From positions 62,001 through 126,000 of the forward strand of contig JAFDXL010000010.1 in assembly GCA_018267955.1 (NCBI GenBank): a stretch of 64,000 bases of DNA, written 5' to 3'. The stretch is from Bacteroidota bacterium. Its GTDB lineage: Bacteria; Bacteroidota; Bacteroidia; Chitinophagales; Chitinophagaceae. The stretch's first letter is position 1. Each line of letters starts with the position of its first letter. The position numbers and the translations under genes are program-made. The notes below the pieces were generated by a model that was not told where the DNA came from, made no database searches, and saw only the letters and a list, made by a program, of their open reading frames with translations. This document shows, piece after piece, positions 20,921-44,301 of this stretch.

Positions 20921-20933
20921 GATGTCTGAATAA

Positions 20934-20948
20934 TGAGAAAATTTCTCA
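20934..20948. promoter_or_regulatory. Palindromic operator candidate 1
   Basis: TGAGAAAATTTCTCA is a near-perfect 15-bp palindrome located 47 bp upstream of the start codon of the RloA-like gene. A second copy differing by one base lies 39 bp further on. A pair of such sites around a promoter suggests binding of a dimeric repressor or activator controlling the defence operon. Confidence 0.6.
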
Positions 20949-20966
20949 AAATTTATGTATAATTTG

Positions 20967-20974
20967 TATTTTTG
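20967..20974 (+). promoter_or_regulatory. Candidate -7 promoter element of the defence operon
   Basis: TATTTTTG matches the Bacteroidota -7 consensus TAnnTTTG and lies 20 bp before the ATG at 20995. No clear -33 TTTG is seen at the expected distance. The element overlaps the second palindrome by two bases, so a protein bound there would block initiation. Confidence 0.5.
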
Positions 20975-20987
20975 AGAAAATATCTCA
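20973..20987. promoter_or_regulatory. Palindromic operator candidate 2
   Basis: TGAGAAAATATCTCA repeats the palindrome at 20934-20948 with one base changed; with its flanks it extends to TTGAGA/TCTCAA. It overlaps the candidate -7 element and ends 7 bp before the start codon, an ideal position for transcriptional repression. Confidence 0.6.
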
Positions 20988-20994
20988 AATAAGC

Positions 20995-27968: not shown

Positions 27969-29021
27969 ATGAAAATAAAATTTTTAAAAGCTTTTAACGG
28001 CGACTCTATTTTGATTTCATTTCTCGAGAATGATATACCTAGGAATATTCTTATTGATGGAGGTACTGGTGACGCTTACAAAAGTACATCTAATGTAAAG
28101 GGTGAATTATTTACAGTAATTGAAAAGATTCAAAAAGATGAGCAAGCCATAGATCTGCTTGTTTTAACCCATTTTGATGACGATCATATCGGCGGAATTT
28201 TAAGATGGTTAAACAAAGACAAAGAAGCTGCTAGTCTTATTAAAAAGGTTTGGTTCAATTCAGGAAAGGAAATAGCTAAGAAATTTAAAAATGCCGAAAA
28301 CCAAGATTTGGATATTGAAGTAGTCGACGGAGCTGATGATTTTTACACGAGCCCTAAGCAAGGTATCAAATTCGAAAAATATCTTACAGATAATAATTTA
28401 TGGGAAGGGAAAATTATTGAGCAAGGTGTGGCATGCGATTTATTTGGTCTGAAATTTAAAATTTTGTCGCCAAATGATGATAAACTTGATAAGCTTTTAA
28501 ATCTGTATGAAAAGCAAAAGGACTATTTTACAAGCGGAGGCGAATATGATTTCAAAACTTCTCTGAAAGAGTTTATTGATGAAGAAAGTCAGCCTGGGTT
28601 TAAATTTCTGGAAGATGCCAGTGTTGCTAATGGTAGTTCTATAGCATTTATAATGGAATATGAGAACAGGAGTTTCCTTTTCCTGGCGGATGCTCACCCA
28701 TCCGTGGTAATTGAGGGTCTGAACAAATTCGGTTACAATAAGGACAATCCATTAAATGCAGAATTACTGAAAGTATCACATCATGGAAGTATGTACAATA
28801 CCAGCAAAGACCTCTTGGAAATCGTAAAAACAAACAAGTATCTTATAAGTTCAAATGCAACTAAACACGGGCTACCCAATAAAAGAACAATAGCCCGAAT
28901 GATACAGAATAATCCAAATGCCCATATTTATTTCAACTATGATTTGAAAGACACCATTTTTTTAGCGCAGGACTGGAATGACTGTCCAAATTTCAGATCT
29001 AAAATGCAAAACGAGTTTTGA
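27969..29021 (+). CDS. ComEC-type metallo-beta-lactamase fold hydrolase of an ABC-3C system
   Basis: The 350-residue product has the MBL metal site THFDDDHIGG (His68, Asp70, Asp72, His73, the H-x-D-x-D-H form typical of ComEC-like members), LFLADAH and KVSHHGS (about residues 267-272). No membrane segments exist, so it is the soluble hydrolase, not a DNA uptake channel. MBL proteins of this type act as nuclease-like effectors in conflict systems. It is translationally coupled (TGATG) to a protease gene and followed by a middle component and a Rad50-like ATPase, which identifies it as an effector of an ABC three-component system. The substrate (nucleic acid or nucleotide) is not known. Confidence 0.8.
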   Translation: MKIKFLKAFNGDSILISFLENDIPRNILIDGGTGDAYKSTSNVKGELFTVIEKIQKDEQAIDLLVLTHFDDDHIGGILRWLNKDKEAASLIKKVWFNSGKEIAKKFKNAENQDLDIEVVDGADDFYTSPKQGIKFEKYLTDNNLWEGKIIEQGVACDLFGLKFKILSPNDDKLDKLLNLYEKQKDYFTSGGEYDFKTSLKEFIDEESQPGFKFLEDASVANGSSIAFIMEYENRSFLFLADAHPSVVIEGLNKFGYNKDNPLNAELLKVSHHGSMYNTSKDLLEIVKTNKYLISSNATKHGLPNKRTIARMIQNNPNAHIYFNYDLKDTIFLAQDWNDCPNFRSKMQNEF

Positions 29022-30322
29022 TGAATGAAAATGATTTAAAAAGATATACAGTCATTTTAGATGGCGGTAGTGGCGTTTTGTTCCAACCTTTGGACGAAAC
29101 AAAGACCTATATCCTTTCGGCCAAACATGTCTTTTATAATGACGTAAAACGTAATAACGGCCCGGATACAAAAGAGCGAAAAGATAGAATTCGTTATAGC
29201 TTATCAACTGATCAGGAAACTCCTATTGAAGTTGAAGTAAACAAAGGAGTGAACTATTATGAGCATAACGAGGCGGATGCTGCAATACTGGTTCTGGATA
29301 AAAATCTAGGTTTTGATCAAATATTTATTGATGAAAGAACAAGTGGTTTTGATGGTTTTAACTTGACAGGCTATCCTAATAGTAAACGCAAGACTGATGA
29401 TAAATACGATAAACAAACAATAAGAGACTTAATTACTCATGACAGTAGCTTAATAACATTAAGACTAGTCGTTAATCATTTAGATCACGGGCAAATTTCT
29501 GGATTTTCCGGTGGAGGAATTATTAAAACAAATGGTGACAGTCTATTATTAGCTGGGATTCAAAGTCAAACACCAACAGAAGACTGTAATGGAGAAATAC
29601 AAGTTGTACCAATAAAAAGATTTGAAGAAATAATCCAACAAAATAATTTACCTCAATTATTACCAAATTTCTTTGCTAAAATAGATTTGCTTCTGGGTTC
29701 AATTATTGAATTTAATCAAACAAAACCTGATCTAAAACCTAAGTTACAGGGAGCTCTTCGCCTTCAAGCAAAGCAAATTAAATGCGATTTGAAAGATATC
29801 TATAATCGAAAAATACTAGACAAATCAGCAATTAAAGCAAATAGTTTAAGTAGTAAACAGTTTTGGGCGTCATTTCTGGAATATGCCTTAATAATAAGTT
29901 TAATAGAAGATCATGAATTTAATGAAGAGCTACTAAGCAAAATGAGTAAAAAAAGAAAATTTATATTTTCTGATTCTGCTAAAAATATTTATGATGTGTA
30001 TAGCGATATTTTGTTGTTTGCTGCTGATAACATTGATGATCAATGTCAGGTTTTAGTTGGTACAACTATTCCCCCAACAACAAATAAAACCAGAAGAATG
30101 TCTACAGCCAGAGTTCCTCAAAATATCTCCAGCATAGACGACGATGAAACTATCGACAGGATAACACTTAGAAATAAGATAAAAGAGATTATACATATCA
30201 AAGCAATAGAATTAGATTGTATTAATGAAAATGATGCCCTGTTAGACCAATTTTCAATAGGTCAATTTGGCGATATATTAACTGAAATAAAAAGATTAGT
30301 AAATGAATTTTTCAATAATTGA
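29021..30322 (+). CDS. Trypsin-like serine protease with C-terminal ABC-3C adaptor region
   Basis: I use the ATG at 29021, which overlaps the TGA of the MBL gene; a TTG one codon before is less likely. The 433-residue product has a trypsin-like fold with His36 (LSAKHVF), Asp86 (EADAAILV) and Ser163 in GFSGGG, so the triad is complete. It has no signal peptide and should act in the cytoplasm. From about residue 215 a helical region follows, which I take as the C-terminal domain that docks effectors onto the middle component in ABC-3C systems. It could cleave host proteins or the partner MBL enzyme on phage sensing; that is inference. The next gene overlaps its end by 20 bp. Confidence 0.75.
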   Translation: MNENDLKRYTVILDGGSGVLFQPLDETKTYILSAKHVFYNDVKRNNGPDTKERKDRIRYSLSTDQETPIEVEVNKGVNYYEHNEADAAILVLDKNLGFDQIFIDERTSGFDGFNLTGYPNSKRKTDDKYDKQTIRDLITHDSSLITLRLVVNHLDHGQISGFSGGGIIKTNGDSLLLAGIQSQTPTEDCNGEIQVVPIKRFEEIIQQNNLPQLLPNFFAKIDLLLGSIIEFNQTKPDLKPKLQGALRLQAKQIKCDLKDIYNRKILDKSAIKANSLSSKQFWASFLEYALIISLIEDHEFNEELLSKMSKKRKFIFSDSAKNIYDVYSDILLFAADNIDDQCQVLVGTTIPPTTNKTRRMSTARVPQNISSIDDDETIDRITLRNKIKEIIHIKAIELDCINENDALLDQFSIGQFGDILTEIKRLVNEFFNN

Positions 30323-30839
30323 AATTACCAGTACAGACTTTCAAATTGAAAATTGTAAAGTCTGCCACTACAGAAATGAAGATGCCTTCAGAGTAAATAT
30401 TTTTTTTCTTGAAGCAGATAGCGATACCATAGAAAAAATTTGGAAACGATTTTCAAATATGGTAGCTGCAAATTATCAAAACCATGAATATATGGGAGAA
30501 AGCAAGTTTGAAAAATGGAACTTTTATATCATTTACGTATCAAAAGCTATCGTTTCGAAAGAACTCAAAAACAAAATAGAAAATGACAAATTCTCCAGTA
30601 GGAAGATTGTTGAAGATGATTATAATAAAGAGTTTAATCATGAAGAAGCCAACCGCTTAATTGTACAACACATTACCAACGCCGATTTAAAAGAAACAGT
30701 AGAGAGAACTAAAGAAACCTCAATTTCAGCATATGCTCCTGAGAATAAAAAACTTTGGGAACTTCTGGCGAAAGAAGAAAAAGTCAGTGGTGACAGGAAA
30801 GCTCAGGAAGAATTCATTAAACAAATAAATGCGTTATGA
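30303..30839 (+). CDS. ABC-3C middle component
   Basis: The 178-residue product starts inside the protease gene and ends overlapping the ATPase start (ATGA). Its N-terminal half alternates strands and helices with aromatic residues (FRVNIFFLEADSD, WNFYIIYVSKAIV), and the C-terminal half is a charged helix that may bind the coiled-coil ATPase. Size, location between effector and ATPase, and sequence character fit the middle component of ABC three-component systems, which links effector to ATPase. No catalytic motif is seen. Confidence 0.7.
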   Translation: MNFSIIEITSTDFQIENCKVCHYRNEDAFRVNIFFLEADSDTIEKIWKRFSNMVAANYQNHEYMGESKFEKWNFYIIYVSKAIVSKELKNKIENDKFSSRKIVEDDYNKEFNHEEANRLIVQHITNADLKETVERTKETSISAYAPENKKLWELLAKEEKVSGDRKAQEEFIKQINAL

Positions 30840-33800
30840 AAATCAAGAGTGTAAAAATTACAGGCTTCAGAGCATTTGAAAAAGAAGAGAATTCAACTTT
30901 CGATTTTACGAAAGATGGCGAAATAATGAATTTTGCTTCAATATATGCGCCAAATGGGTTTGGTAAGACATCATTTTATGATGCTGTTGAATGGGGGATT
31001 ACTCACAAAATTCAACGTTTTGATAGAATGGTCGATTTTGAAAAAATTAGAAAAGATAATGACGCTCCGTTGTTATTAAATAAGTCTTCGTCGTCTGGAA
31101 AAGTAATAGTTGAAACTAGTTCACAAAATTTTGAGAATGTTATAAATAAGAAGAAAGTTTATAAATATAATGAAAAACCTGCGAACGAGTATTTTCAAAA
31201 TCAAGTATTAACCCAAGATTTAATCGACGCCTTTTTAAAAGAAGAGAAAGCAGAAGATAGATATACGAAGTTTCTGGAAATAGACTATAATTTAAAAAAG
31301 TATGATGCTGCATATAAGAAGATTAATACTCTTTTAGGATATATTAATGATGAGAGAAAAGAATTAATTAAAAATAAAGGTAAAGAAGAAGCCAAAATTC
31401 AAGTCGAAATTGACTTTGAGCAAGAGTTTAAAAAGTTTGATGAGCTTAATGAAGTAATTGGGTCTCTTAACAAAGAGAATGAAAATTTAAACCCCATTGA
31501 GCAACGCACATTTAATCAGACCACTTATGATAATTTGTCTAGAAATATTGATGTTCGATTATTATCATTGGAGGAACAACTAATCAAGGTTAAGTTACGT
31601 GCAGACACTTTAATATTAGCCAGAGATGGAGAAAAATCTGAAGAAGGAAAATTAGAGGGCGGGTTATTATCCTATCTCGACAATAAAAGCAAAATTTCAC
31701 AACTGGATGAGCGACTCAAAGAATTAAACCACATAGTTAAATGGTTTGAAGAGCAGGAAAAGGCTGACAATGAGCTCAGGGCTAACGATAAGGATTTGGA
31801 AAACCAGCAAAAGAGATTGGCGCAAGCTCTCAATTTTGATAAGCGGTTTGAAACATTTCTCAGCATTCAAAAAGAAATAGATCGTTTACAGAAGGACATT
31901 GCAGATTTTAAAGACAAAATCCTTAGTGCCGAGCGTGAAAAATTTGATGCTGAAAAAGAGAAAAAGGATCAGCTTACAACGCTTAACAGATTGAAGAACA
32001 CGCTTGAGAGTACTCAGGCTAAATTAAATAATATACCGGCACAACAAACACAGCTAGAATTCATTGCTAAGGCTATTGTTGATTTACAAAAGACTATTGA
32101 GGACTTATCAAAATCAATAGATACAGAAGAGAAGAAACAGGCTGATTTAAAAGTAACTCTGGATGAATTTGCGTATTATGAAAATAAGATTAATGAGGAG
32201 CCTCAACTTTTGCTAGAATTTAAATTATTTGACGATTATAAAAAAATAGTTATCGACTTCGTAGCTGAAGAAAAAAAGCTGGAGAAGTTCGAAAAAGACG
32301 TTCAGGAAATTCAATCTAAAATTGACGATCAAACTAAATTCAACAAAGAACTTAGCGATTTCGTCAATTCCGGGCTGGAATTGGCAAGCAAGTCGCAAAG
32401 TTCAAACTGCCCGCTCTGCAACCAGGACTATGGCACATTTGAAAAGCTATCTGAAAGTATTTTATCTAATGAGCTATTGGATAGTCAATTAAAAAGATAT
32501 TTAGAAGAAAAAACTGAGACTGAAGCGAAAATAAACAAACTGCAATTACAGTTATCTGCTGATAAAGAAGCGATTAAAAACGCACTTTCTACAATCAAAG
32601 CGCCCTTTTTATCGGATTATAGAAACATCCAAAATGTAACCGATAAATTAACTTCTGAGCGAAAGTCCAATCTAGAGAAATTAAACGGTAGCCAATCGAT
32701 CTTAAACGAGATCAATTTATCATTGGGCGATACCAAGACATTTGAAGAATTATCGGCCAAAGTACAAGGGGAACTATCAAAAATAAATACCCAAATAGCA
32801 GAGTGCTCTGATCAGATCAAAAAAAATGAAGACACACTATCAGAGAAAGAAACACTCATTCAATCTACTAAAGAAAAATTAAGCATTTCAGAACCTAATC
32901 TTTTAAAACATCAGTCTTCGAAAGATTATAATGAAGTACGGGATTATTTCATTAGGGAACTGAGTGCTACTATTGAAAAATCCATATTATCAGAACACAT
33001 ATCGAACATTCAGCTCACTATTTCCGATTTAACAGAGAAAAAAGAAGGGCTAAATAAGGCCCTAGACGATATAAAGATAACGCTATCCAGTTATCCTTTA
33101 GCTAAGGATGAGTACATCCAAAAATGCCAGCAAGTAAACAATACAAAAAATTTGGCATTGAGGGTCTATGAAAGCTATGAAAATTATATTCGGTCGGAGT
33201 TTGGTATAGAGATAAGCGATAAAGATAAACTTCAAATTGAAAAAGCGTTTATAGATCTTGTAGCCAGGCAGAAACAACTGGAAAAACAAACTGAATCGAA
33301 AATTGAACAATATAAAATTGTTAGAATCTTAAATGATGCTTGCATAAAAGCTACAGAATCTAAAATAATACAAGACAAAATTGAAGAAATCAATGACAAT
33401 CTAAAGAAGCTGGGTAGTGCCGAGAAAGAGTTAAACAACGAAAAAGAAAGTCTGAAAACGTACCTCAAAGGTAATATTGAAGCCTATTTTTATACCCCTT
33501 TAATCAATGCCATTTATAAAAAAATTGACCCTCATCCCGATTACAAAGAGATTGAGTTCGAGTGTGATTTTGCTGAAAACAAACCCAGATTACAGATTTA
33601 TACAACCTCTCTTGATGAGAGCGGGAACTTATTAAAATCCGTCCCTTCATTATATTTTAGTACTGCTCAGGTAAACATTTTAAGTTTAAGTATTTTTTTA
33701 GCTCGTGCTTTAAAAACTAAAGATGATAATGGGCAACCGGTGGATTGTATTTTTATTGACGATCCAATTCAATCAATGGATAGCATTAATATTCTTTCGT

Positions 33801-33967
33801 TTATAGATTTGTTTAGAGGGTTGACATTATCCTTGGACAAGCAACTAATTGTTTCGACCCACGAAGAGAATTTTCATTTATTGCTACAAAAGAAGATTCC
33901 TTCCGGACTGTTTAAATCTACTTTTATAGAGTTTGAGACTTTCGGCAAGTTGAAATTAGTGAATTAA
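30836..33967 (+). CDS. Rad50/SMC-like ATPase of the ABC-3C system
   Basis: The 1043-residue product has Walker A APNGFGKTS (Lys44, Thr45; the first Gly of the motif is Ala), extended coiled coils, a zinc hook CPLCNQD (Cys525, Cys528), and C-terminal Walker B CIFIDDPIQSMD (Asp975, Asp976) with a switch STHEENF. It is the sensor/motor of the ABC-3C system and may recognise foreign DNA or replication structures. Compared with SbcC upstream and JetC downstream it is markedly AT-rich and Lys/Asn-rich, which suggests separate ancestry. The Jet genes begin 26 bp after its stop. Confidence 0.82.
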   Translation: MKIKSVKITGFRAFEKEENSTFDFTKDGEIMNFASIYAPNGFGKTSFYDAVEWGITHKIQRFDRMVDFEKIRKDNDAPLLLNKSSSSGKVIVETSSQNFENVINKKKVYKYNEKPANEYFQNQVLTQDLIDAFLKEEKAEDRYTKFLEIDYNLKKYDAAYKKINTLLGYINDERKELIKNKGKEEAKIQVEIDFEQEFKKFDELNEVIGSLNKENENLNPIEQRTFNQTTYDNLSRNIDVRLLSLEEQLIKVKLRADTLILARDGEKSEEGKLEGGLLSYLDNKSKISQLDERLKELNHIVKWFEEQEKADNELRANDKDLENQQKRLAQALNFDKRFETFLSIQKEIDRLQKDIADFKDKILSAEREKFDAEKEKKDQLTTLNRLKNTLESTQAKLNNIPAQQTQLEFIAKAIVDLQKTIEDLSKSIDTEEKKQADLKVTLDEFAYYENKINEEPQLLLEFKLFDDYKKIVIDFVAEEKKLEKFEKDVQEIQSKIDDQTKFNKELSDFVNSGLELASKSQSSNCPLCNQDYGTFEKLSESILSNELLDSQLKRYLEEKTETEAKINKLQLQLSADKEAIKNALSTIKAPFLSDYRNIQNVTDKLTSERKSNLEKLNGSQSILNEINLSLGDTKTFEELSAKVQGELSKINTQIAECSDQIKKNEDTLSEKETLIQSTKEKLSISEPNLLKHQSSKDYNEVRDYFIRELSATIEKSILSEHISNIQLTISDLTEKKEGLNKALDDIKITLSSYPLAKDEYIQKCQQVNNTKNLALRVYESYENYIRSEFGIEISDKDKLQIEKAFIDLVARQKQLEKQTESKIEQYKIVRILNDACIKATESKIIQDKIEEINDNLKKLGSAEKELNNEKESLKTYLKGNIEAYFYTPLINAIYKKIDPHPDYKEIEFECDFAENKPRLQIYTTSLDESGNLLKSVPSLYFSTAQVNILSLSIFLARALKTKDDNGQPVDCIFIDDPIQSMDSINILSFIDLFRGLTLSLDKQLIVSTHEENFHLLLQKKIPSGLFKSTFIEFETFGKLKLVN

Positions 33968-33993
33968 TTTTTGTAGGACCATTACCTTATGCC

Positions 33994-35325
33994 ATGAAAG
34001 AAATTGATCTTTATTCCGAAGCAAAACCACGCTACTACCAACTCATCCCCAATAAGGAAGATGGGTTGATCATTCTTGCGCTGTATCAAAAATACGGACA
34101 GAACGAGTTTACGGAAGACCAGATTATCCAGGTGATCAATAAGGTGCTGAGCGATCTGGGTAGTTCGGGATTGCGGGAAGAGAGCAACCGCAACAACAAC
34201 ATTATCCTGCGTTTGCAAGAATTTTTTCTCTGGCGAGATCGGAAGCGGAAGCTATATGGATTTAAAAACTATGGAATAGAGTTTTGTGAGAAAATATCCA
34301 AACGTCTTTCCGAAAGCTACCATCCGGCCAAGATAGAGCGCCTGTTTAAACACCTGCTGGAAACCCTGAAAGTAAGCCTTGAAAAAGGGCCAGCCGAAGA
34401 ACTATTTATATGGAAGGAAGATCATTTCCAACAGCGTAGCGTTGAGCTAGCCAAGCAGATAGAAATATTGGATCAACAAGTAAGCCAGTCGGTAGCAGAT
34501 TTTCGTTTCCAGATCAAACAGCCACAGGAAAACATCGTGCAGGTGATCGATAACATTAGCGCGGGTCTGGATGCTATCAAACAGCATGTAGATGAACTCA
34601 AAGCCGGTTTTCAGATCACTTATGATATAGATGATGTCTTGGAGCCGATGCTGAAAGATCCTGCATGTTTTGAGTTGCTGGATAGCATAGCTGAGGTAAT
34701 GCAGTATAACGAACACGTTCGCAACCACCTTGACCAGGTGAGTGTGCGTATTGATAAAATTAAGCCCGGTATACGGGAGTTTATTTTTGAGTTTAACCAA
34801 AGGGAACTGGACCGTAAAACGGATCAATTTATTCATTACCTGCTCGATCATACCTCGTACACACGTCAGGAAGGCCAAACCAAAAAACTTATTTTGCCGG
34901 AGAAAGTGATGCCGCTCGTCATCAAAATACCGGAAGCGGCCCCCAAGTTTTGTGTACTTACCGAAAAGGATCTCAGCAGAAAAGCGCCGCTGCCCGCTAC
35001 GGCCCGATCTGTAGATACGGAGCAGACAATGGTGGCTATGGTTAAGAACCGTGAGAAGCTGGCACAAAGGAAGCGCATTCAGGACTGGACCCAACAGGCG
35101 CTGCGGCACATACAACAAAATGGCCAACTGGACTTTTCTCCTTTCTTCTTCCACATACTGGCTGCCGAACAGAACGACCTGAACATTCCTGTAAGGGTTG
35201 CGCAAAGGTTGGTGAAACAGTGCAATGGTCGGCAATATACGGTAAGTGTAGCCCAGCAAGAATATCATAATCCCGACTATCAAAATCTTTCATTATGGAA
35301 CATGACGATACAGAAAAGGATTTGA
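33994..35325 (+). CDS. jetA: Wadjet subunit JetA (MksF/MukF-like kleisin)
   Basis: The 443-residue product has a winged-helix-like N-terminus (LIILALYQKYGQNEFTEDQ), a helical middle with several long amphipathic helices, and a C-terminal region that would bridge the SMC heads, the layout of MukF/MksF kleisins. Direct sequence recognition of kleisins is weak; the assignment rests mainly on gene order with an MksE-like, an SMC-like and a Toprim gene. It is the first of four overlapping genes of a Wadjet system, which extrudes and cuts small circular DNA. The following gene overlaps its end by 31 bp. Confidence 0.8.
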   Translation: MKEIDLYSEAKPRYYQLIPNKEDGLIILALYQKYGQNEFTEDQIIQVINKVLSDLGSSGLREESNRNNNIILRLQEFFLWRDRKRKLYGFKNYGIEFCEKISKRLSESYHPAKIERLFKHLLETLKVSLEKGPAEELFIWKEDHFQQRSVELAKQIEILDQQVSQSVADFRFQIKQPQENIVQVIDNISAGLDAIKQHVDELKAGFQITYDIDDVLEPMLKDPACFELLDSIAEVMQYNEHVRNHLDQVSVRIDKIKPGIREFIFEFNQRELDRKTDQFIHYLLDHTSYTRQEGQTKKLILPEKVMPLVIKIPEAAPKFCVLTEKDLSRKAPLPATARSVDTEQTMVAMVKNREKLAQRKRIQDWTQQALRHIQQNGQLDFSPFFFHILAAEQNDLNIPVRVAQRLVKQCNGRQYTVSVAQQEYHNPDYQNLSLWNMTIQKRI

Positions 35326-35975
35326 ACCTACGTTATGCATTTATGACGGACAGGGCGGCCAAAGGCACCTTTGCCAAACTGGACTACCAGCTCAGGTCGG
35401 GCACGCACATACAGCGCAATTTCCCTAAACCGGCTGCGCTCTATGCCTTCCTGGACAAATACCATGACAGTCTGCAGGCTTATTATGAAGACTTTTTTGA
35501 CATGCTGCTCAAAAAGGAGGGCGAAGGGTGGAATGCCTATTTTTATCTTGATTTTCATGAACATTCACGGGGAAAAATACCTTCCGATCCTTCCTTTAAG
35601 GCGTATCTCAAAACCGAATATGTCCTGATAGGGCTGCTCTTTTTCAAAGTATTCAGACTCGATGGCAACATTGAATTGTCTAAAATATCGGATTTCATTA
35701 ACCTGTTGTACCAGGAATACGACGATCTGCTCAATAAGTTGCAACGCGTAGTGTCGTCTATCGAAAGCGACGCCGGTTCAGATATGAACGAAGGAAAACT
35801 AAATAGTCTGGTTCATAAAGCCTTTTCCGAATTTCATCAGTTGGGCTGGATAGAAAAGGATGCAAACGACAGCGATTATTTTACTTGTCAGCCCTCGTTT
35901 GAAAGGTTAAGAAGGATTTACTATCCACAGATTGAAACGATTGACGAAATTATAAAGCGCAAGGAGCATGGCTAA
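35295..35975 (+). CDS. jetB: Wadjet subunit JetB (MksE/MukE-like)
   Basis: The 226-residue product is a mixed helical protein with two winged-helix-like halves, of MukE/MksE size. I keep the ATG at 35295, which overlaps jetA by 31 bp; an in-frame ATG at 35343 would remove the overlap. The C-terminus overlaps the jetC start by 8 bp. JetB binds the kleisin JetA and DNA in the Wadjet condensin complex. Confidence 0.78.
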   Translation: MEHDDTEKDLNLRYAFMTDRAAKGTFAKLDYQLRSGTHIQRNFPKPAALYAFLDKYHDSLQAYYEDFFDMLLKKEGEGWNAYFYLDFHEHSRGKIPSDPSFKAYLKTEYVLIGLLFFKVFRLDGNIELSKISDFINLLYQEYDDLLNKLQRVVSSIESDAGSDMNEGKLNSLVHKAFSEFHQLGWIEKDANDSDYFTCQPSFERLRRIYYPQIETIDEIIKRKEHG

Positions 35976-38900
35976 GTTTCAACCCAAAATATATAGCCTG
36001 TCTACACTCAACATAAGGCAGCATTTCAATTGCGATTATCGTTTTCATGATTTTCGTACTGATTTTAGCGGCGAAAGCGGAAGTGGCAAAAGTCTGATCG
36101 CCGATTTTATACAATTGCTTTTGGTAGGTTCCGGTGTTTTTAAGTCAGGGACAGAAGGCGTAAAAAACAGAGATACCAGTGGGCTGGCATTGAAAAGTGC
36201 GGGAGGCGGCTACGGACGCGGCTATATCCTGATCAATGTGGAGGTGCAACCACGCCAATACATTGCGCTCGGCGGCTACCTGGAGTCATCGAGCACGCAG
36301 ATGCTGTTTTTTATTGTGCAGGCAGGATACGATTTTGAGGAAATACTTGCACCAATGAACGCGCCTGTTTTTTACAAAGATCTGTTGGTAGATGGCCAGA
36401 TAGACACTTTGGAAAACCTGGAAAAAAGCCCGTTGGAAAAGGGCTATCTGAAAAAGATAAGTAATAAGAAGTACCACCATTTGCTTTTTAATAACGGCAT
36501 ACTGGCTGTAGATCTTAGTCAAAACGAGCAAAGCCTGAAAAGCTATGCGGCCATTATCCGTTCTTTTTCCAGGGGCAAAGGTTTTTTTACCCATTCAGAT
36601 GCTTTAAAAACGTTTCTGTTTGGCGACGCAGACCAAAAGCGACTCCTGGCAAAGTACAACGAAGAACTACAAAACATTCATACAGACCACCAGCAACATC
36701 AGCGCTTGCAGGAGGAGATTGCACTAATCAAGGATAAGGAACAAAAGATAGAGCGTGTAATGCATGATTTTAACGCTTACCATCTTTTGAGAAAGCAGTT
36801 CAGTCAGGAGAGTACAAGCTTTTGGTTCCGGGAAAATGCCAGTGTTACCCAAGAATTGGAACAAGCAGAGCAAGCCTATCAAGTAAGTAGCGCACGAAAA
36901 TTTTTGGTTGCGAAAAGGTTAGCCACCAAGAAAAAAACAGACATAACGAACAGGTATGATGCTATAAGGGAATTAAGAAACAAACGCCAACATGCGGAGC
37001 AGGATAATGCAATGCTTGAAACACAAAAAGACAGTGCAAAAAAGCTGCTGGACGAAAGTACAAGGTATAAGGACCTGATTGACACAGTAAGCCGTTGGTT
37101 GACCGGCGACCGGCAAGATCTGACTGCCATCAGGCAATGGCACGCGGAAGAACGCAGCAAGCTGACGGACGCGGACACGTTTAGGGCGTTTGAAGCTTAT
37201 CTGCAGACGCACCGCTTACAAGGTGAGTTCAAGCAATCGGACTGGTATCGGAAGGACTTTGCAACAGCGTGGGAAAGGACTTTGCAAAAGCTGAAGAAGC
37301 TGGAGGAAACTATCATAAAGCAGGAGGTTCAGGTACTGTTTTCAGACCTCGACAATCCGGCATCGCTGGCTCATTGGGCTATTGCACAGCTAGCGCTGCC
37401 ACTGAATATAGAGCAGGAAAGTTTGTTATTCCATTTTCAACCTCTGTCGAGAACAGCCCCCATTCCGCCGGAGAAGCGATATCTGCCCTTTCCGGAAAGG
37501 TTGTTTAAAAATCCGGTCGTAGTCAACGCAGATGATAAGGGATTCTGGCTGGAACTAAATGGCCTCTATGAATATATTGCGTATGTACCAGAACAGCATC
37601 TCAACGTGCCGCACGATCAAATCAAACTGGATCGTGTGCCATTAAAGGCGCTGAAGCAACAGCTTGATACTTTAGAACAGGAATATAAGCAGCTAAAAAA
37701 CCTAAAAGAAAAACTGGAAGCCTATCCGGCATTAGAAAAGGCGATTGCCTTATACAAAGCCAACCAAAGTGAGTTATTTGTACCAATAGACGATATAGCA
37801 CATTTAACGCCGCCGGAATTGGAGCGGCATCTCTCTGCCTTTCAAAATTCGAAACAGCACCTGTCAGACTATCAGAGAGATGAGGAGGCTTATGGTATTG
37901 CGCTTGGTAATTATACGCTGATGAAACGTGCTGGCGAGGATGCTAAAGATAAGATCGATGAAGCGGTGTGTTATATGAACGAACACTATGGTGGTACTGA
38001 TTTCGAATTGTTGTTACAAGCAGTAGAAAGCGATCTGCTGCTTGCTGAAAATGCGCTGGATGACCTTATAATAAACCAAACTATTTCGCTGCGGAAAATG
38101 CAAGGACTGGAAGCGGAGCTTTTCGGTACTAATCCTGCCATGCACAAACTGCACGAGATGAATACTAAGGCAGAGGCTGACTATAGCGGAGCAAAAAGCC
38201 TCCGGGAACAGAAAAAGGAGCGGTGCATATCAAGCCTGGATAAGCTTAATGAAGCAAAAATGAAATTTATGGCCGAGCATCAGCGCGACTTTGTGGCCGA
38301 TCAGGATATGGTCAAAATAGATCGCGAGCCGGACGAAAAACAAAGTGAAACTGCCCATAACAGGTTTATAAATACCTATGAATTTGCCAGTGAAGAGATA
38401 GAAGACAAAACGATCTTGAAAGATTATTCGGTGGGCGTGCTGGCGCATAAGTTATTGCCTACGGTTTTTCCTACACAGCAACTCCAGGAAGAACTTATCG
38501 GTGAACAGATTGAGAAAAGGCTTACGGAACTGGCCAATGATCTGCAAAGTATCGGGTCAAGAAAGATAGAGATCCTCCACAATGTATTTAGTGAAGTACA
38601 TAAAGCCTATAATGAATACCTGACCAAAGTACAGCGCATAGGCCGGTATTTATCCAATCATGAAATTACAGGTGGTAATTATGCCAACTTGCAACATAAG
38701 CCTGCGCCGGGCTACCCTGAAGACTGGATGAAGGTTTTCAGAAAACGCCTGAACCATGAAATGCAGGAAGTGGGCCTGTTTGCGTCTGCCCATAAGCAGG
38801 ATATTAGCGATATCATGCTCAGTGTTTTTCGAGATGCCAATGGCGATAGGAATGCTAAAGTAGAAGACCTCCTGAATCCACGCTCTTATTTTGACCTGCT

Positions 38901-39282
38901 TTTTGAAATCAAGCTGGAAGACGGTCAGAGCAATTCGGGGAGTAATGGACAAACCTACACCGCCAATGCCTTACTTTGTTTGGCAAGATTGTCCCTGATC
39001 GAAGATGAAGATCGTTCAGGTATACGTGTGATGCCGATTGACGAAGCGGAGGGTTTGGGTGGCAATTATGAAATGTTGCATGCCCTGGCAAAGAAAGAGG
39101 GCTACCAGCTCATAACCATGTCTATCGATACTGCCGGTGATATCAACAACGATGGGCAATATATCTATATCATGCACGACAACAAGGATGCTACCGGGCT
39201 AACCTATGTGCCACCGCTGGGCATTTTCCATGATGGTCAATTAACGGAAAACATAAATGAAATCTTTGAAGAAACTACCTAA
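35968..39282 (+). CDS. jetC: Wadjet subunit JetC (MksB/SMC-like ATPase)
   Basis: The 1104-residue product has Walker A SGESGSGKS (Lys41, Ser42), long coiled coils with a hinge-like middle, a signature-like stretch (SNSGSNGQT) and Walker B VMPIDEAEGLG near the C-terminus, as in MukB/MksB/JetC. It powers loop extrusion by the Jet complex. It has no zinc hook, which separates it from the SbcC and ABC-3C ATPases upstream. Composition is closer to SbcC than to the intervening AT-rich block. The jetD start overlaps its end by 26 bp. Confidence 0.88.
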   Translation: MAKFQPKIYSLSTLNIRQHFNCDYRFHDFRTDFSGESGSGKSLIADFIQLLLVGSGVFKSGTEGVKNRDTSGLALKSAGGGYGRGYILINVEVQPRQYIALGGYLESSSTQMLFFIVQAGYDFEEILAPMNAPVFYKDLLVDGQIDTLENLEKSPLEKGYLKKISNKKYHHLLFNNGILAVDLSQNEQSLKSYAAIIRSFSRGKGFFTHSDALKTFLFGDADQKRLLAKYNEELQNIHTDHQQHQRLQEEIALIKDKEQKIERVMHDFNAYHLLRKQFSQESTSFWFRENASVTQELEQAEQAYQVSSARKFLVAKRLATKKKTDITNRYDAIRELRNKRQHAEQDNAMLETQKDSAKKLLDESTRYKDLIDTVSRWLTGDRQDLTAIRQWHAEERSKLTDADTFRAFEAYLQTHRLQGEFKQSDWYRKDFATAWERTLQKLKKLEETIIKQEVQVLFSDLDNPASLAHWAIAQLALPLNIEQESLLFHFQPLSRTAPIPPEKRYLPFPERLFKNPVVVNADDKGFWLELNGLYEYIAYVPEQHLNVPHDQIKLDRVPLKALKQQLDTLEQEYKQLKNLKEKLEAYPALEKAIALYKANQSELFVPIDDIAHLTPPELERHLSAFQNSKQHLSDYQRDEEAYGIALGNYTLMKRAGEDAKDKIDEAVCYMNEHYGGTDFELLLQAVESDLLLAENALDDLIINQTISLRKMQGLEAELFGTNPAMHKLHEMNTKAEADYSGAKSLREQKKERCISSLDKLNEAKMKFMAEHQRDFVADQDMVKIDREPDEKQSETAHNRFINTYEFASEEIEDKTILKDYSVGVLAHKLLPTVFPTQQLQEELIGEQIEKRLTELANDLQSIGSRKIEILHNVFSEVHKAYNEYLTKVQRIGRYLSNHEITGGNYANLQHKPAPGYPEDWMKVFRKRLNHEMQEVGLFASAHKQDISDIMLSVFRDANGDRNAKVEDLLNPRSYFDLLFEIKLEDGQSNSGSNGQTYTANALLCLARLSLIEDEDRSGIRVMPIDEAEGLGGNYEMLHALAKKEGYQLITMSIDTAGDINNDGQYIYIMHDNKDATGLTYVPPLGIFHDGQLTENINEIFEETT

Positions 39283-40252
39283 CAATACGGATTTTACATG
39301 GCCGCTACTGAAAGCCTTGCATGACTTGTACGAGAAAAAGAAGACCGTTGCTAAAATTCAGGACTTGGATTTTATAAGATACTTGATGTCGCAGACAGAT
39401 CTTATTGCGCAAAAGAAGGGAAACAATAAGATCCTGGTGGCACAAGATGGTTATGAGGCATATTACGAAGCATATTTTCAATCCGCGTATCAATACTATT
39501 ACGACTTTCTTACCCAGGTAGACATCCGTCCGGATGGTGGTAAGAATTTCACCGAGGAGGATATCCGTACTTTGATGGTTATTTATGAAAGCAAAGATGA
39601 ATTGAAGGGTAACTTGTTAAATATTGAAGATTTTTCCGGTAAAATATTCGACTATGCAGGTTCGAAATATTTGAAATTTAAGGATAGCGTACGTAATGCG
39701 GTATTGAAAATTTTAGAAATAGATGAATTTCCACAAAACTCAAAAGACTTGCAGTATAGGCTGGTAGTAGATTATCCTAAACCTAAAGCCATTATCCTCT
39801 GTGAGAACAAATCCTTTCTGAAACAGCCTTGGAACGCTAAAGAGCTTGAAGTTAAACTATGGCATGTTGGCGGTAACAATATTGCTATTGTGAAAGACAT
39901 CGATGAAATGGAGTTATCTTATCCAATCTATTATAGTTGTGACTGGGATTTTGATGGGTTACGGATATTTCAACGTATCAAGGCCAGATTGGAAAGTCGT
40001 GGAGCAACCATTAAAATCTTAGTACCGCCGCCGCATCATCATTATCTGCCCAGTGACTCCTTTATGCACAAAAGTAGATGGAACTATAAACAAGACTTTT
40101 CAGGACTGGACCGAAACGCATTTTCCGCAAATGAGCAGGATCTGATAGACAAACTGATAAAAGAGGATTTGTGGATTGAGGAAGAAAGAATTGTTTTGAA
40201 GGAGATGTATTATTACAACATCTCAAATAATACAACATTTCATAAAAGTTAG
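39257..40252 (+). CDS. jetD: Wadjet nuclease subunit JetD (Toprim/DUF2220-like)
   Basis: The 331-residue product has a helical N-terminal arm and a C-terminal Toprim domain: Glu183 in AIILCENKSFL and Asp229/Asp231/Asp233 in CDWDFDG. This matches MksG/JetD, the topoisomerase VI-like nuclease that cuts plasmid DNA after the SMC complex has extruded it. It is somewhat shorter than many JetD proteins, mainly in the N-terminal part. I cannot assign Wadjet type I, II or III with confidence. It is the last gene of the operon and converges with the transposase-fusion gene 54 bp away; no strong terminator is visible between them. Confidence 0.85.
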   Translation: MKSLKKLPNNTDFTWPLLKALHDLYEKKKTVAKIQDLDFIRYLMSQTDLIAQKKGNNKILVAQDGYEAYYEAYFQSAYQYYYDFLTQVDIRPDGGKNFTEEDIRTLMVIYESKDELKGNLLNIEDFSGKIFDYAGSKYLKFKDSVRNAVLKILEIDEFPQNSKDLQYRLVVDYPKPKAIILCENKSFLKQPWNAKELEVKLWHVGGNNIAIVKDIDEMELSYPIYYSCDWDFDGLRIFQRIKARLESRGATIKILVPPPHHHYLPSDSFMHKSRWNYKQDFSGLDRNAFSANEQDLIDKLIKEDLWIEEERIVLKEMYYYNISNNTTFHKS

Positions 40253-40306: not shown

Positions 40307-43300
40307 CTACAATTTTCCTAAGAAATCCTCATACCCTTTCCAGCTCTCCATCCGGGTATAATGAACTTTGGGATCTCTTGGGATTTCGGGTGGGATAGTG
40401 CCATTCTTACATAGGGTAACAAATACGTTCTTAGACCGGATATGTAGTGGTGCTAAAAAGGGTTTAGCCTCCTCATAACTCCAGAAAATCTTATATTGAT
40501 TGGCGACACGAGCTGTGCCGAGGAATTTCCCCCATCCTTCAAATTCATGATAAGCTTTATCTGGTGCTGCAGGAATGGTAGCGGGACGTTCTCCTGTTTT
40601 ACTCCATATCATATATGCTTCGCATGTTTGAATGCCGATGGCCTGCACATACGCTTTTGCCTGCTCGTAGGGCATTTTTTTCTTCCTTTGATTCTGAATG
40701 TTTCCAGTCCCCAACCAATCACCCAAGCCGTTCCATCCAGCATACTTATAGACCTTTTCAGGCTCATGAGGTATTGTCTTGGGGCGCTTTTTGCTTTTTA
40801 ACCATATACGGTACTCCTCTCGATTTTTCAATCCTAATCGCCGCATATATGTCCTGGCTCTTTCAAACGGCCAGAAGCTGCACCCTGCCCAATCTTCCCA
40901 GCTGATCCAACCGTTGTCCTTATATACTTTTTCCGGATAGAGCGGGATAAAATGCGGACGTTTCCCGGATCGATCCCATGCTACCCATTCGGAGCGTTTC
41001 TCCAGTTTCAGCTTTCGTACATATTGTCTTGCCTGGCTAAAAGGCAAATAACCGGGCAAAATATCAGGATGTACGTTTTCCCAGATGCCAGATTTACGCC
41101 TTAAAAAATTTAGGAAGCGTATATTACGGTATCGACAAGTTTGGGCAAGGCTGAGCATTTTCAAGTAATCTCTCAATCCATTTTCGCCGATCATTCCTTT
41201 TACACCACGTCTATATTGTGCAAATGCTTTTACTGCCGCTTCCGCATTGTTGTTGTTCCAGGGAACGCCGTCATGTTGCAGAAACGTCCACAATTGTTGC
41301 CAATGTTTCTGAAAGCGTTTAGCACATTTAACTGCCAATTCACTTTTATGTAGGATTTCTACGTGACGCTGCAAGAAATACTGCGTGTCCTTTATGTGCT
41401 TTTGTAAATGCAGCCGCTTTAAACCATATCGGTCAATAGTTGCAATAATCTTCCGGAGCAGTGTATTAAAACCTGTAACAATAGTCTTGTATTCTTCATC
41501 AAAGGGATTTTTAAAAAGATCATCATTCAAATCGCGAATCAGATGTATCAGGCATTTTTGCCTGATGACTGGCAGCGATTCATACGAAGGAAAAAAGTCC
41601 GTAATAATAATGCCTTTATAGTTTTTTAGCCATTCATGGAGAAAAGCTCCGTCTCTCGTATCTGTATAATGGTAGAGTACAGTGTGTGCAGTGGCAAATA
41701 CCCAGACATAGCCACTCTTATTTTCCAGGTATATAGATGTTTCATCAATATGGATGACCGGGCTGCGTAGAATAATCTCCTTGATACAACTTACTTCCGG
41801 CTCCCACTGTTTCCACCATTTCTGTTTACGCATCACCAGGTACATTGGACTGATCCAGATCCCGAATTGCTCCTGCATGATACTGCTGATAAGATAGTTG
41901 CTGATATTGTAGTTGATGTACAGATAGGTGACATAGGCAAAAAGGTTGTCGCCATATTGTGTACGCCGGAGGATGTGATCATTATAATGTTGCCAGCATT
42001 TTCCGCATCTTGACCTAGTTCCGATGTATTCTGTCACGTGTTGCTTAATACTGGTATTAGCGAATTTAAGATCGGTCTGTACTACACGTCTTTTTTGATG
42101 ATAGTGATATACTTTGGCAGACCCACACTTAGGGCATTCCGTTAAAGGAGTTAAGGTGATCGTTTCATGTATTTTGTGCGGCTCCCACACAGGTACTCCC
42201 TTTTTGTGTTCGGTCGGTTTTGCTAAAGCAATGGCAGATATCGACAAAGCCTCTTTATTTCTCCAATAGATCTTTGATCGCTGATAATCGAAGTAAGCTG
42301 CTTTACTGATAAATTGGAAGTCATCTCCCAATTCAGGATTATTCTGAAACTTGAACAAGCTTTGTTTTTTCATTTCAGATACCTCCTGTATACCGTCCTG
42401 TGCGCTCCCTTGCGCCAAATGTGTAAACCATTCCCTGACGACACATAGGGCTTTGCAATCGTCCAGGTTGTATTGTATAAGTGATTCTTTAATGCTACTG
42501 TACTTATTCCCTTCCCATTTTTTTCGCCATTGAATACTTTGCTTGCCATCATCAAGTGTTTGATTCCATTTAAAGCCTAGGAAATGCCCCAATTCTTTTA
42601 ATCCGTTACTGTAAATAGGTGGATAAACATGTGTCCGTAAAAGCGCCAGAAGGTTAAACATCCTTGGCAATACAGTTACAATTTCGCTTTTAAGTGCTGG
42701 GAATTTCTTCTGTACATACTGAAGACTTTTGGTTTCATAGCTGCCATAATGATAAATCGTAGCTTCGGGATATTGCTTCAATAATCCAAACAGACGGACA
42801 AAGATTTCCTTTTCCTCATTTGGAGTGTCAGCCCAAAATGAATAATGGTTGTTAATTCCATCCTCCGTTACGATTATTGCACCTACTAAGTATATAAAAC
42901 GCTCATCCGGTAGGCCTTCAAAATCCAGATAAATGGAAACAGGTGTTTCTTTTACATCTGGCGGGTAAAGGACAAATGTTTTTCGCTCCGTTACAGCAAG
43001 CGCCTTTAATTCCCATAAATAGTTGCCAGATGGTTGCGGATGTTTTCGCCGTCGTCTTGGACGAAACAAGTGTGAAAGTTGCTGAATAGAGTAAATACCC
43101 CTTTTATGAAATTTCAATATCACTTTGGGTGGTATGCCTGTCATCAAACTGATGCAATTCTTTTCGACCAGCTTTGAAAGACATGCATTCTGAAAAGGAC
43201 ATTCAGGACAATGTGGATTCCTGTAAAAAGTGGGAGGAGTATTATTGTCAATGATCTGTAAAGTATCGGTTAGTAATTTCCGGGCTTTGACAGAAGTCAA

Positions 43301-43555
43301 TTTTAATTTCAGTGTGGATGTTTGTTGGTTCTTATAAATGATATGTACCGGCAGAATAGTTGTAGTACTTGAGGATGCAATACCTAATGCTGTCAAGACA
43401 AGTTTATCTTCTGGTGTAACAGAATCAGTGGAAAGTAAAAGAGGCTTTTTTAGATCTGCCGGGATTGCTACCTGATGTGGATCATTCTTGGCAAGCTGCC
43501 ATGCTTTATAATGGCAGTGAAGCATGGCTTGCAATATATCCCGATTCGGTTGCAC
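40307..43555 (-). CDS. Fusion protein: TM0106-type RecB-like/DEDD nuclease plus IS66-type transposase plus integrase repeats
   Basis: One 1082-residue frame joins four parts. Residues 1-165: a Cas4/RecB-like start (DILQAMLHCHYKAW) and a C-x2-C-x5-C cluster (Cys116, 119, 125), shorter than expected, with no visible D...ExK. Residues 190-380: an RNase H-like DEDD domain with YLDFEG (Asp211, Glu213), YSFWAD, IYSNGLKELG and YNLDDC (Asp365/366), as in the TM0106 family. Residues 470-820: an IS66-type transposase with zinc finger (Cys474, 477, 517, 520) and DDE residues Asp604 (HIDETS), Asp653 (ITDFFPSY) and Glu772 (NNNAEAA). Residues 837-1080: four repeats of about 60 residues like phage-integrase repeat units. 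GTG at 43555 is used; a stop lies three codons upstream. No TnpA/TnpB partners or terminal repeats are seen. Confidence 0.85.
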   Translation of the reverse strand: MQPNRDILQAMLHCHYKAWQLAKNDPHQVAIPADLKKPLLLSTDSVTPEDKLVLTALGIASSSTTTILPVHIIYKNQQTSTLKLKLTSVKARKLLTDTLQIIDNNTPPTFYRNPHCPECPFQNACLSKLVEKNCISLMTGIPPKVILKFHKRGIYSIQQLSHLFRPRRRRKHPQPSGNYLWELKALAVTERKTFVLYPPDVKETPVSIYLDFEGLPDERFIYLVGAIIVTEDGINNHYSFWADTPNEEKEIFVRLFGLLKQYPEATIYHYGSYETKSLQYVQKKFPALKSEIVTVLPRMFNLLALLRTHVYPPIYSNGLKELGHFLGFKWNQTLDDGKQSIQWRKKWEGNKYSSIKESLIQYNLDDCKALCVVREWFTHLAQGSAQDGIQEVSEMKKQSLFKFQNNPELGDDFQFISKAAYFDYQRSKIYWRNKEALSISAIALAKPTEHKKGVPVWEPHKIHETITLTPLTECPKCGSAKVYHYHQKRRVVQTDLKFANTSIKQHVTEYIGTRSRCGKCWQHYNDHILRRTQYGDNLFAYVTYLYINYNISNYLISSIMQEQFGIWISPMYLVMRKQKWWKQWEPEVSCIKEIILRSPVIHIDETSIYLENKSGYVWVFATAHTVLYHYTDTRDGAFLHEWLKNYKGIIITDFFPSYESLPVIRQKCLIHLIRDLNDDLFKNPFDEEYKTIVTGFNTLLRKIIATIDRYGLKRLHLQKHIKDTQYFLQRHVEILHKSELAVKCAKRFQKHWQQLWTFLQHDGVPWNNNNAEAAVKAFAQYRRGVKGMIGENGLRDYLKMLSLAQTCRYRNIRFLNFLRRKSGIWENVHPDILPGYLPFSQARQYVRKLKLEKRSEWVAWDRSGKRPHFIPLYPEKVYKDNGWISWEDWAGCSFWPFERARTYMRRLGLKNREEYRIWLKSKKRPKTIPHEPEKVYKYAGWNGLGDWLGTGNIQNQRKKKMPYEQAKAYVQAIGIQTCEAYMIWSKTGERPATIPAAPDKAYHEFEGWGKFLGTARVANQYKIFWSYEEAKPFLAPLHIRSKNVFVTLCKNGTIPPEIPRDPKVHYTRMESWKGYEDFLGKL

Positions 43556-43917: not shown

Positions 43918-43982
43918 AGTGCTCCCAGAACAGGAATCGAACCTGCACTCCATTGCTGAAACCAGATTTTGAGTCTAGCGTA
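43918..43982 (-). pseudogene. tRNA-Leu-like 3' fragment (anticodon CAA)
   Basis: On the minus strand the sequence gives an anticodon arm CTAGA-CTCAAAA-TCTGG with anticodon CAA, a long variable arm (TTTCAGCAATGGAGT), a T arm around GGTTCGATTCC and a 3' acceptor strand (CTGGGAG). The 5' acceptor and D arm are missing; upstream is unrelated AT-rich DNA. The long variable arm supports a Leu type. This is the second truncated tRNA in the window and marks a likely integration scar at the right end of the accessory region. Confidence 0.65.
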
Positions 43983-44227
43983 ACTAAAACGGATAATATT
44001 AAAAAGTTCACGACTTGAAATTGAACCCATATTAATGTAAAAAAACCATTGGTAATAACTTTCACCATCCCTCTTTAGGTTTCAATAGAGAACAGTCGGA
44101 ATTAACAATCCACCAAAGCTTTGCAAGATAAATGTTTGACCTATGTTTGACCCAGTATACTAAAGTTCAAATTACATAATTATTTAATAAATATAACAAA
44201 GCCGCACTGTGTGCAGCTTTGTTCATG
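43983..44227. other. Noncoding stretch at the island/core border
   Basis: No gene is visible between the tRNA fragment and the intact tRNA-Met. A tandem string (TTTGACCTATGTTTGACCC, about 44133-44151) and scattered AT-rich sequence suggest leftovers of an integrase upstream region, but no recognisable protein is encoded. Confidence 0.35.
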
Positions 44228-44301
44228 TAGCGAAGACGGGAGTTGAACCCGTGACCTCAGGGTTATGAATCCTGCGCTCTAACCATCTGAGCTACCTCGC
44301 C
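44228..44301 (-). tRNA. tRNA-Met (CAU), elongator type
   Basis: The 74-nt minus-strand sequence folds into a complete cloverleaf: acceptor GGCGAGG with CTTCGCT, D arm TAGCTCAGATGGTTAGAGC, anticodon arm with TTCATAA, variable region, and T arm ACGGG-TTCAACT-CCCGT, discriminator A. The lowest anticodon-stem pair is A-C. The D arm and acceptor type suggest elongator Met rather than initiator. CCA is not encoded. It stands at the start of the core genome segment. Confidence 0.88.

Follow-up and report, generated by a model that had tools for sequence, protein, structure and literature searches.

The stretch of DNA analysed here (the window) comprises 64,000 nucleotides from a bacterium of the Chitinophagaceae (Bacteroidota; contig JAFDXL010000010.1, positions 62,001 to 126,000). 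It carries a gene whose product, called the fusion protein below, joins a TM0106-type nuclease part and an IS66-type DDE transposase part in a single frame, as a first-pass annotation made from the letters alone had claimed (Table 1). The GTG start of this gene aligns with the ATG start of its relatives (VQPN.. and MKPN.., respectively). Pfam recovers RNase_H_2 (residues 208-377, E 1.4e-22) and DDE_Tnp_IS66 (residues 532-785, E 4.4e-32), and NCBIfam adds TM0106 (TIGR03491; residues 52-376, E 3.6e-55, profile positions 130-461 of 462) and the IS66 transposase (residues 460-820, 187.5 bits against a cut-off of 180). The intact DEDD motifs, the triad Asp604/Asp653/Glu772 and the zinc finger of the first-pass annotation were all confirmed. 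No further IS66 Pfam domain was found in the window protein up to E 1, nor any Cas1-type integrase domain by Pfam. The profile matches show one chain with a predicted Cas4-like four-cysteine module, a DEDDy domain, a zinc finger and an IS66-type DDE domain. Its predicted active sites are two, DEDDy and DDE, and only two because the RecB/Cas4-like part has lost its nuclease motif.

Table 1. Features in and around the window, and five short units closed by direct repeats that hold relatives of the fusion gene. Positions are those of the window, except where G000:C1 (window genome) is given.
Feature	Position or site	Strand	Remarks
Fusion gene	40307..43555	-	1082 amino acids, GTG start; one uninterrupted frame of 1082 codons
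Cas4/RecB-like remnant, residues 1-130	43166..43555	-	Cys 14/116/119/125 kept, nuclease core shortened
RNase_H_2 domain, DEDDy-type 3'-5' exonuclease, residues 208-377	42425..42934	-	D211, E213, E274, Y362, D366
Cys4 zinc finger, residues 474-520	41996..42136	-	C474, C477, C517, C520
IS66-type DDE domain, residues 532-785	41201..41962	-	D604, D653, E772
Four C-terminal repeats, residues 835-1082	40310..41053	-	about 60 amino acids each
tRNA-Met	44227..44301	-	45 bp of its 3' end (44226-44270) repeated at G000:C1:46094-46138
Tyrosine integrase	G000:C1:46276-47511		left of the window, beside the 45-bp repeat; Phage_integrase, E 1.2e-15
25-bp repeat	44130..44154	.	common to G000:C1:46240-46264, beside the integrase at the island's far end
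tRNA 3' fragment, tRNA-Leu (CAA) by eye	43921..43980	-	some 370 bp upstream of the fusion gene, towards which its 3' end points
JetABCD-like (Wadjet) operon	33994..40252	+	convergent with the fusion gene
Lamassu-like operon	27969..33967	+	two LmuA-model matches, small gene, AAA_13/AAA_23 ATPase
AbiL-like pair	20917..22967	+	
L113 unit	tRNA-Pro, 50-bp repeat (98%)		5.4 kb; fusion and Fic
L088 unit	tRNA-Gly, 30-bp repeat (100%)		4.7 kb; fusion and AbiEi/AbiEii
L060 unit	tRNA-Asn, 25-bp repeat (100%)		5.4 kb; fusion, Schlafen-AlbA protein, ParB-HTH-like open reading frame
L078 unit	tRNA-Glu end, 77-bp repeat (88%)		3.1 kb; fusion alone, no other open reading frame of 60 amino acids
L087 unit	comM 3' end, 143-bp repeat (82%)		3.5 kb; fusion and Gp49/HTH toxin-antitoxin pair

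The fusion is not peculiar to this genome. Searching genome contigs with an alignment of four sequences yielded 132 relatives by tblastn, of which the best 80 were kept, corresponding to 79 distinct loci (numbered L; genomes are numbered G). Together with L006, L033 and L034 these make 82 loci, L081 and L034 being the same record, and 79 of the 82 hold one uninterrupted frame of at least 680 codons, the split ones being L047, L054 and L101. An assembly chimera is ruled out by nearly full-length relatives that are 50-55% identical; L006, from another family of Bacteroidota, shares 50% identity with the window protein over residues 6-1079. The second finding that would have told against the first-pass annotation, homologues lacking one half, was not made either: those examined have both.

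Conservation was counted in 79 aligned proteins, 78 of them different, omitting the split L047, L054 and L101 as well as L081; the finding scan used two short patterns, around Q666-I673 and N113-F121, and those columns are therefore partly preselected. In the DEDDy site, D211, E213, Y362 and D366 are present in all 79 proteins and E274 in 77 (D in the other two). The DDE site is kept almost as strictly: D653 in 79, D604 in 78 (one N) and E772 in 77 (one Q, one gap). Of the zinc finger cysteines, C474, C517 and C520 occur in 79 proteins each and C477 in 69 (nine H, one D). The ratio of nonsynonymous to synonymous substitution rates (dN/dS) was computable for 45 of 53 domain values from 12 pairs, and 43 of the 45 lie at 0.04-0.33; the exceptions are the DEDD part of L045/L046 (0.63, with a dS of only 0.019) and a 55-codon tail of L066/L068 (0.61). 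The domains of the fusion are under purifying selection. In a quick tree, in which long branches meet at the split in question, the DDE parts of 48 fusion members lie on one side of a branch and 16 ordinary IS66 transposases on the other (support 99).

The N-terminal part had been described as a shortened RecB-like nuclease with no visible D...ExK. The shortening and the missing motif were borne out, and what remains of the nuclease is a remnant that keeps its four cysteines. Residues 66-128 are matched by PADLOC Cas4 models, and a 62-member profile gave a single match in the PDB, Cas4 8d3l (E 5e-5). A D(T/S/A)K motif of the 'YEvvDTKL' type occurs in 12 of 16 standalone TM0106 proteins; those without it (L231-L234) are cyanobacterial, with 489-498 amino acids. 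In the 79 fusion proteins the PD-(D/E)xK motif is absent, the sole 'DTK', in L006, having no accompanying Glu and looking like chance. An active RecB/Cas4 nuclease is ruled out since the motif is missing, and this third nuclease is, judging from the alignment, dead with its cysteine cluster retained: Cys 116, 119 and 125 are kept in 78 of 79 proteins and Cys 14 in 71 (seven gaps, one Y).

The window protein belongs to a clade of 11 in which the distance from Cys 14 to Cys 116 is 53-102 residues (102 in the window) against a median of 176; five proteins from outside the clade are also short there, with the N-terminus missing (L065, L085, L097, L108 and L112). C-terminal repeats occur in 11 of 79 proteins, exactly those with the shortened RecB core. 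Their number is one in L041, two in L036-L040, three and a piece in L035, and four in L006, L042, L043 and the window. The clade deleted the RecB core and gained the repeats, which are a feature of the lineage. The four repeats had been likened to phage-integrase repeat units; the repeats are real, and the name has no support, as no phage-integrase repeat is matched by Pfam in the window protein up to E 10. Homologous repeats occur in proteins of large phages, namely LR745208 (L127; E 3e-23) and XacN1 (L126), CM1 and RAS14 (E 2e-9). Pfam gave no match in either of the two that were scanned (LR745208 and XacN1), and by eye an HNH-like stretch precedes the repeats in the LR745208 protein. The four repeats may be DNA-binding modules.

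The family is widely and thinly spread. According to record titles, the best 79 loci fall in at least 12 phylum groups plus one KSB1 bin; many records are metagenome bins and single labels may be wrong. The bacterial groups are Bacteroidota, Pseudomonadota, Cyanobacteriota, Verrucomicrobiota, Planctomycetota, Nitrospirota, Acidobacteriota, Nitrospinota, Myxococcota and Hydrogenedentota, and the archaeal ones Methanobacteriota (Methanoperedens, ANME-1) and Thermoplasmatota. Two members (L033, L034) are plasmid-borne; the fusions on plasmids of Acaryochloris and Calothrix are 34-35% identical and lack the repeats. A single copy is present in the window genome (G000, 4.18 Mb, 98% complete); a search of 14 other genomes of its genus gave none. 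Counted by hand at 680 or more profile positions, near-full copies number one in 26 of 31 genomes or records and two or three in G467, G469, G473, G475 and G477; in a further 38 genomes (G473 is in both sets) one match was found in 30 and two or three in eight. The gene is rare: in the class of G473 it was found in 9 of 291 genomes (E up to 1e-100) and in that of G477 in 2 of 258 (E up to 1e-120), centre genomes included. Phylum labels are interspersed in the tree (for Pseudomonadota, 11 rows need 10 changes), and such scattering suggests, without proving it, transfer between phyla. The gene of the plasmid locus L034 is 87% identical to that of the chromosomal locus L093, and no other match of 250 bp at 78% exists between them. 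The fusion gene appears to spread horizontally and patchily as a single gene, not as an insertion sequence with inverted ends. An origin as a phage gene was not borne out: two scans of viral contigs gave no confirmed relative, and the six matches in phage records are to the repeats or the transposase part, none covering 80% of the fusion.

Signs of exchange within the family were noticed as well. The Nostoc loci L069 and L100 have flanks that are 96-99% identical and different members of the family between them; in addition, L100 seems to contain what is left of another one. About 520 bp, from the cysteine cluster to the first half of the exonuclease domain, are up to about 92% alike in DNA among genes that have otherwise diverged (L059, L060, L063, L076, L077, L082, L083, L085, L088 and L098), as if this stretch had been exchanged by recombination. 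L173 and L175 (Microvirga, same genome) have genes about 66% alike and 333 bp in common at 98.8%, spanning the last 44 bp of the gene and the downstream flank.

Ordinary IS66 ends were sought around the gene. With 350-bp flanks of 74 loci, an inverted pair exceeded the control maximum only in L082, where the motif is a dispersed repeat; this 14-mer is also the only repeat found three times or more within 3 kb of a gene. With 1-kb flanks, inverted pairs scoring at least 14 occur in 7 of 69 loci (0 of 135 controls) and direct pairs in nine, and none of the seven inverted pairs has GTAAG ends. The sensitivity of this search is moderate: among ordinary IS66 loci it recovered inverted ends in 5 of 18 with 1800 bp of upstream flank (four with GTAAG; a sixth match, L223, is a run of N and was discounted) and in 2 of 18 with 350-bp flanks. 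An IS66 element with inverted ends is ruled out by the flank search, and since no element ends can be fixed, an 8-bp target duplication is not readable. Beside the window gene there is no tnpA or tnpB, its neighbours being jetD and a tRNA with no open reading frame of 80 amino acids between gene and tRNA; no tnpA/tnpB-like neighbour of relatives appears among the first 25 of 110 neighbour families listed. The first-pass annotation was right in describing a gene without TnpA/TnpB; as a distinction from IS66 this is insufficient, given that the ISBst12 group of IS66 has a single open reading frame (PMC12898284, accessible part). By the ends, the mostly single copy per genome and the patchy spread, the fusion is evidently not an ordinary IS66 element.

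What the flanks do hold is direct repeats and tRNA ends. Of 74 loci, 17 have direct repeats that span the gene and three have inverted ones; several of the 17 direct pairs stand away from any tRNA or gene end and may be unrelated. In five of the 74 loci, the window's own copy not among them, the gene lies in a unit of 3.1-5.4 kb closed by direct repeats at the 3' end of a tRNA or comM gene (Table 1). No recombinase was found by Pfam among the eight other open reading frames of at least 60 amino acids that a simple caller gave for these units and the AbiEi frame, nor any Cas1-type integrase or polymerase among the frames scanned; the ParB-HTH-like (helix-turn-helix) frame of L060 straddles the left repeat. 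A home-made integrase profile with three seeds gave doubtful matches, such as L113:7070-7531, which has no Pfam match, and was not relied on. A unit of another kind may be present in L074, where a 60-bp direct repeat (7540-7599 and 10421-10480, 88%) stands symmetrically about 70 bp outside each gene end, without a tRNA, and encloses the gene only. In L061, the direct repeats around the fusion (110-188, 1874-1971 and 6920-7020) carry GTTAGGC/GCCTAAC, like integron attC, and the gene may there be an integron cassette.

Where a tRNA 3' end is near, it mostly faces the gene. The model of such ends (R1) rests on 15 of them, and because several came from these loci, it is bound to match those; tRNA direction played no part in its making. 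It matches 16 of the 79 loci (E <0.05), and in 16 of 16 the end nearest the gene faces it. In a second set the window, L180 and L200 face the gene and L172 and L196 face away (L171 is L078 again), which gives 19 of 21 loci with a model match; counting each of the homologous pairs L038/L040 and L035/L043 once leaves 17 of 19 (one-sided chance 4e-4). Outside this count stands L111, with a tRNA-Arg found by ARAGORN that faces away and is not recovered by the model. A tRNA 3' end lies within 1 kb of the gene in 7 of 79 loci, and T-arm motifs are 3.3 times denser within that distance, where 145 kb contain 8 (the window contributes two), than further away, where 660 kb contain 11. Standalone TM0106 controls have direct repeats in 2 of 18 loci and, by distances calculated manually, tRNA ends within 1 kb in 0 of 18; the samples are small and the difference is not convincing alone. 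Divergent copies also stand side by side: L170 has two and a weak 29-bit remnant on one strand, and in two other genomes exact overlaps of contig ends (L182/L117, 113 bp; L171/L172, 75 bp at tRNA-Glu) indicate that these copies are probably neighbours too, as when elements accrete at one site.

In the window, the fusion is the last gene before tRNA-Met in a 60-kb island marked by repeats of the tRNA-Met 3' end. In 12 of 14 sister genomes, conserved sequence starts at the tRNA or no more than about 40 bp from it; the other two gave short matches only. The fusion is missing from the sister genome G010, where a fragment of tRNA-Met lies about 49 kb from the tRNA-Met itself. The 25-bp repeat may be a recombinase arm-type site, and the tRNA-Leu-like fragment an attachment-site remnant, possibly marking an earlier, smaller insertion that brought the fusion gene. 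The adjoining defence operon seen at first pass is JetABCD-like, with matches to JetD (39257-40252) and MksE (35295-35975); its other two genes match no model. From 20917 to 40252, within the 60-kb tRNA-Met island, the plus strand is a dense defence island, in which AbiL-like, SbcCD (Pfam SbcD_C, SbcC_Walker_B), Lamassu-like and JetABCD-like genes follow in a row. The fusion gene is not part of Wadjet, being convergent with jetD on the opposite strand, and no Jet model appears among the first 25 of 153 matches listed for the nearest neighbours of relatives.

Of the explanations considered, the one placed first, and held tentatively, is that the fusion protein may be a self-contained DNA-end-trimming integrase that moves small elements. 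The domain layout suggests an order of holding, trimming and joining. The Cas4-like cysteine module, an iron-sulphur DNA-binding fold by analogy with Cas4, would hold a DNA end, the DEDDy exonuclease would trim its 3' strand and the DDE domain would join the trimmed 3' end to the target. DNA would be bound by the zinc finger and also, in the clade of the window protein, by the four repeats. The contexts of the loci suggest that the DNA joined is a small unit carrying the gene; the substrate would be this element, with passengers such as AbiE, Fic or toxin-antitoxin genes. This reading is supported because both active sites are almost invariant and under purifying selection, because five units are closed by direct repeats with no other recombinase found, and because the DDE parts branch together, the tRNA 3' ends face the gene and members sit side by side. 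Of the two descriptions in the first-pass annotation, 'domesticated or self-contained', the second is supported; the first is too static for a gene that spreads horizontally. A more specific form is rather unlikely: a casposon-like integrative element built on a DDE transposase, comprising one to three genes, inserting itself at the 3' ends of tRNA or protein genes without inverted repeats or a tyrosine or serine recombinase, and having a dead Cas4-like module for holding ends.

Several observations weigh against an integrase of small elements. In the sequence examined, 57 of 74 loci have no spanning direct repeat. The closed units have no terminal inverted repeats inside them, and of seven repeat-bounded units tested for inverted ends only L057 beats the control, via a repeated motif. 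Their direct repeats are of unequal length (25-143 bp) and identity (82-100%) and look more like the attachment sites of tyrosine recombinases than like duplications made by a DDE enzyme. A search for the empty site of L113 in 74 genomes of its family found as nearest G1182 (80%), which matches up to the tRNA-Pro end and then differs. A related tyrosine-recombinase gene is found in the flanks of 10 loci and another in three; Pfam integrases lie 96, 194 and 333 bp upstream in L094, L105 and L104 and 656 bp upstream in L040, and Pfam resolvases upstream in L035 and L043, so that in other loci the fusion may be cargo. The window copy itself now stands at the end of a larger island, as its last gene, and that island encodes a tyrosine integrase. 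The unequal repeats, the lack of inverted ends and this integrase all speak for cargo.

The main rival, ranked below the integrase, is precisely a cargo gene, and it is a serious though not a probable possibility. The fusion would be a stand-alone defence gene that attacks invading or replicating DNA, the DDE domain nicking or joining and the exonuclease degrading from the nick; islands, plasmids and elements without integrase would carry it because it helps the host. The patchy spread across phyla, the one near-full copy in most genomes and the variety of vehicles (plasmids L033 and L034, tRNA-bounded units, a tyrosine-integrase island) are in line with this, as is the failure to find relatives in the viral contigs and, beyond partial matches, in phage records. 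The window copy adjoins AbiL, Lamassu-like and Wadjet-like operons, and some relatives have AbiE, Fic, DpdF, McrBC, methylases or toxin-antitoxin genes as neighbours. Nonetheless, the 115 nearest neighbours scanned are mixed, with no conserved operon partner seen. Moreover, the strand-transfer residues of the DDE site are kept in nearly all members, which a plain nuclease might not need, and divergent copies pile up at single sites.

An enzyme of host-DNA maintenance, processing stalled or broken ends in repair or in the upkeep of plasmids and replicons, is improbable. Cas4/TM0106-like and DEDD modules are typical of DNA-end processing, which fits such a role, and two members are on plasmids; the absence from the other 14 genomes of the genus and the rarity in both classes surveyed argue against it. 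Least probable is a passenger or relict transposase, derived from IS66, without present function and dragged along in islands after losing its ends, since the missing IS66-type ends and several decayed copies (L198 in four pieces, L185 and L197 split, L200 and L191 partial) are outweighed by purifying selection and almost invariant active sites across phyla, which made it already unlikely.

No description of a TM0106-IS66 fusion was found in the literature searched, largely without subscription papers; it may have been noted elsewhere, and the records of two relatives carry unrelated names, a TM0106 nuclease and an IS66 transposase. The fusion may represent a DNA-inserting element of a kind not described so far, or else a mobile defence gene. 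Two RNase H-fold sites of opposite habit, for the removal and the joining of 3' ends, are kept in one protein in bacteria and archaea. As a mover of small elements, the fusion would be a compact integration enzyme with preferred sites; in a defence role, it would be a protein missing from the lists of defence systems.

Among known systems, IS66, including its ISBst12 group, shares with the fusion the DDE triad, the Cys4 zinc finger and the NCBIfam model, whose cut-off the fusion passes. The fusion differs from IS66 by its TM0106-type N-terminus, the lack of IS66-type ends and the direct repeats in 17 of 74 loci. TM0106 proteins (COG2251) share the TIGR03491 match, the four cysteines and the DEDDy site, but the DTK-type motif, present in most of the standalone proteins (12/16), is not kept in the fusions. 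AAA domains are frequent in COG2251 proteins, and PF13482 exonucleases and IS66 fall in separate clades, no fusion of both being named in the accessible part of that survey (Majorek 2014, PMC3985635). A nuclease and a DDE transposase in one chain are also found in the TnsA-TnsB fusions of Tn7-like elements, where TnsAB works as one transposase (PMC8188705, accessible part). Those have a TnsA-type endonuclease and Tn7-type ends and partners; the fusion, in contrast, has a DEDDy exonuclease, no such ends and no steady partner. The insertion sites of casposons are tRNA genes or the 3' parts of protein genes, and Cas4-like genes are found in some casposons, according to the accessible part of PMC6614799. 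Similar sites with flanking direct repeats are apparent in five of the 74 fusion loci. Casposons encode a casposase of the Cas1 type and a family B DNA polymerase and have terminal inverted repeats, whereas the fusion would rely on DDE chemistry, with no inverted repeats and no polymerase among the open reading frames scanned in the closed units. In the acquisition of spacers by clustered regularly interspaced short palindromic repeats (CRISPR), trimming by Cas4 or DnaQ-like enzymes precedes integration, and the same has been suggested for casposon ends (PMC6614799, accessible part); here the predicted trimming parts come already fused to a DDE integrase.

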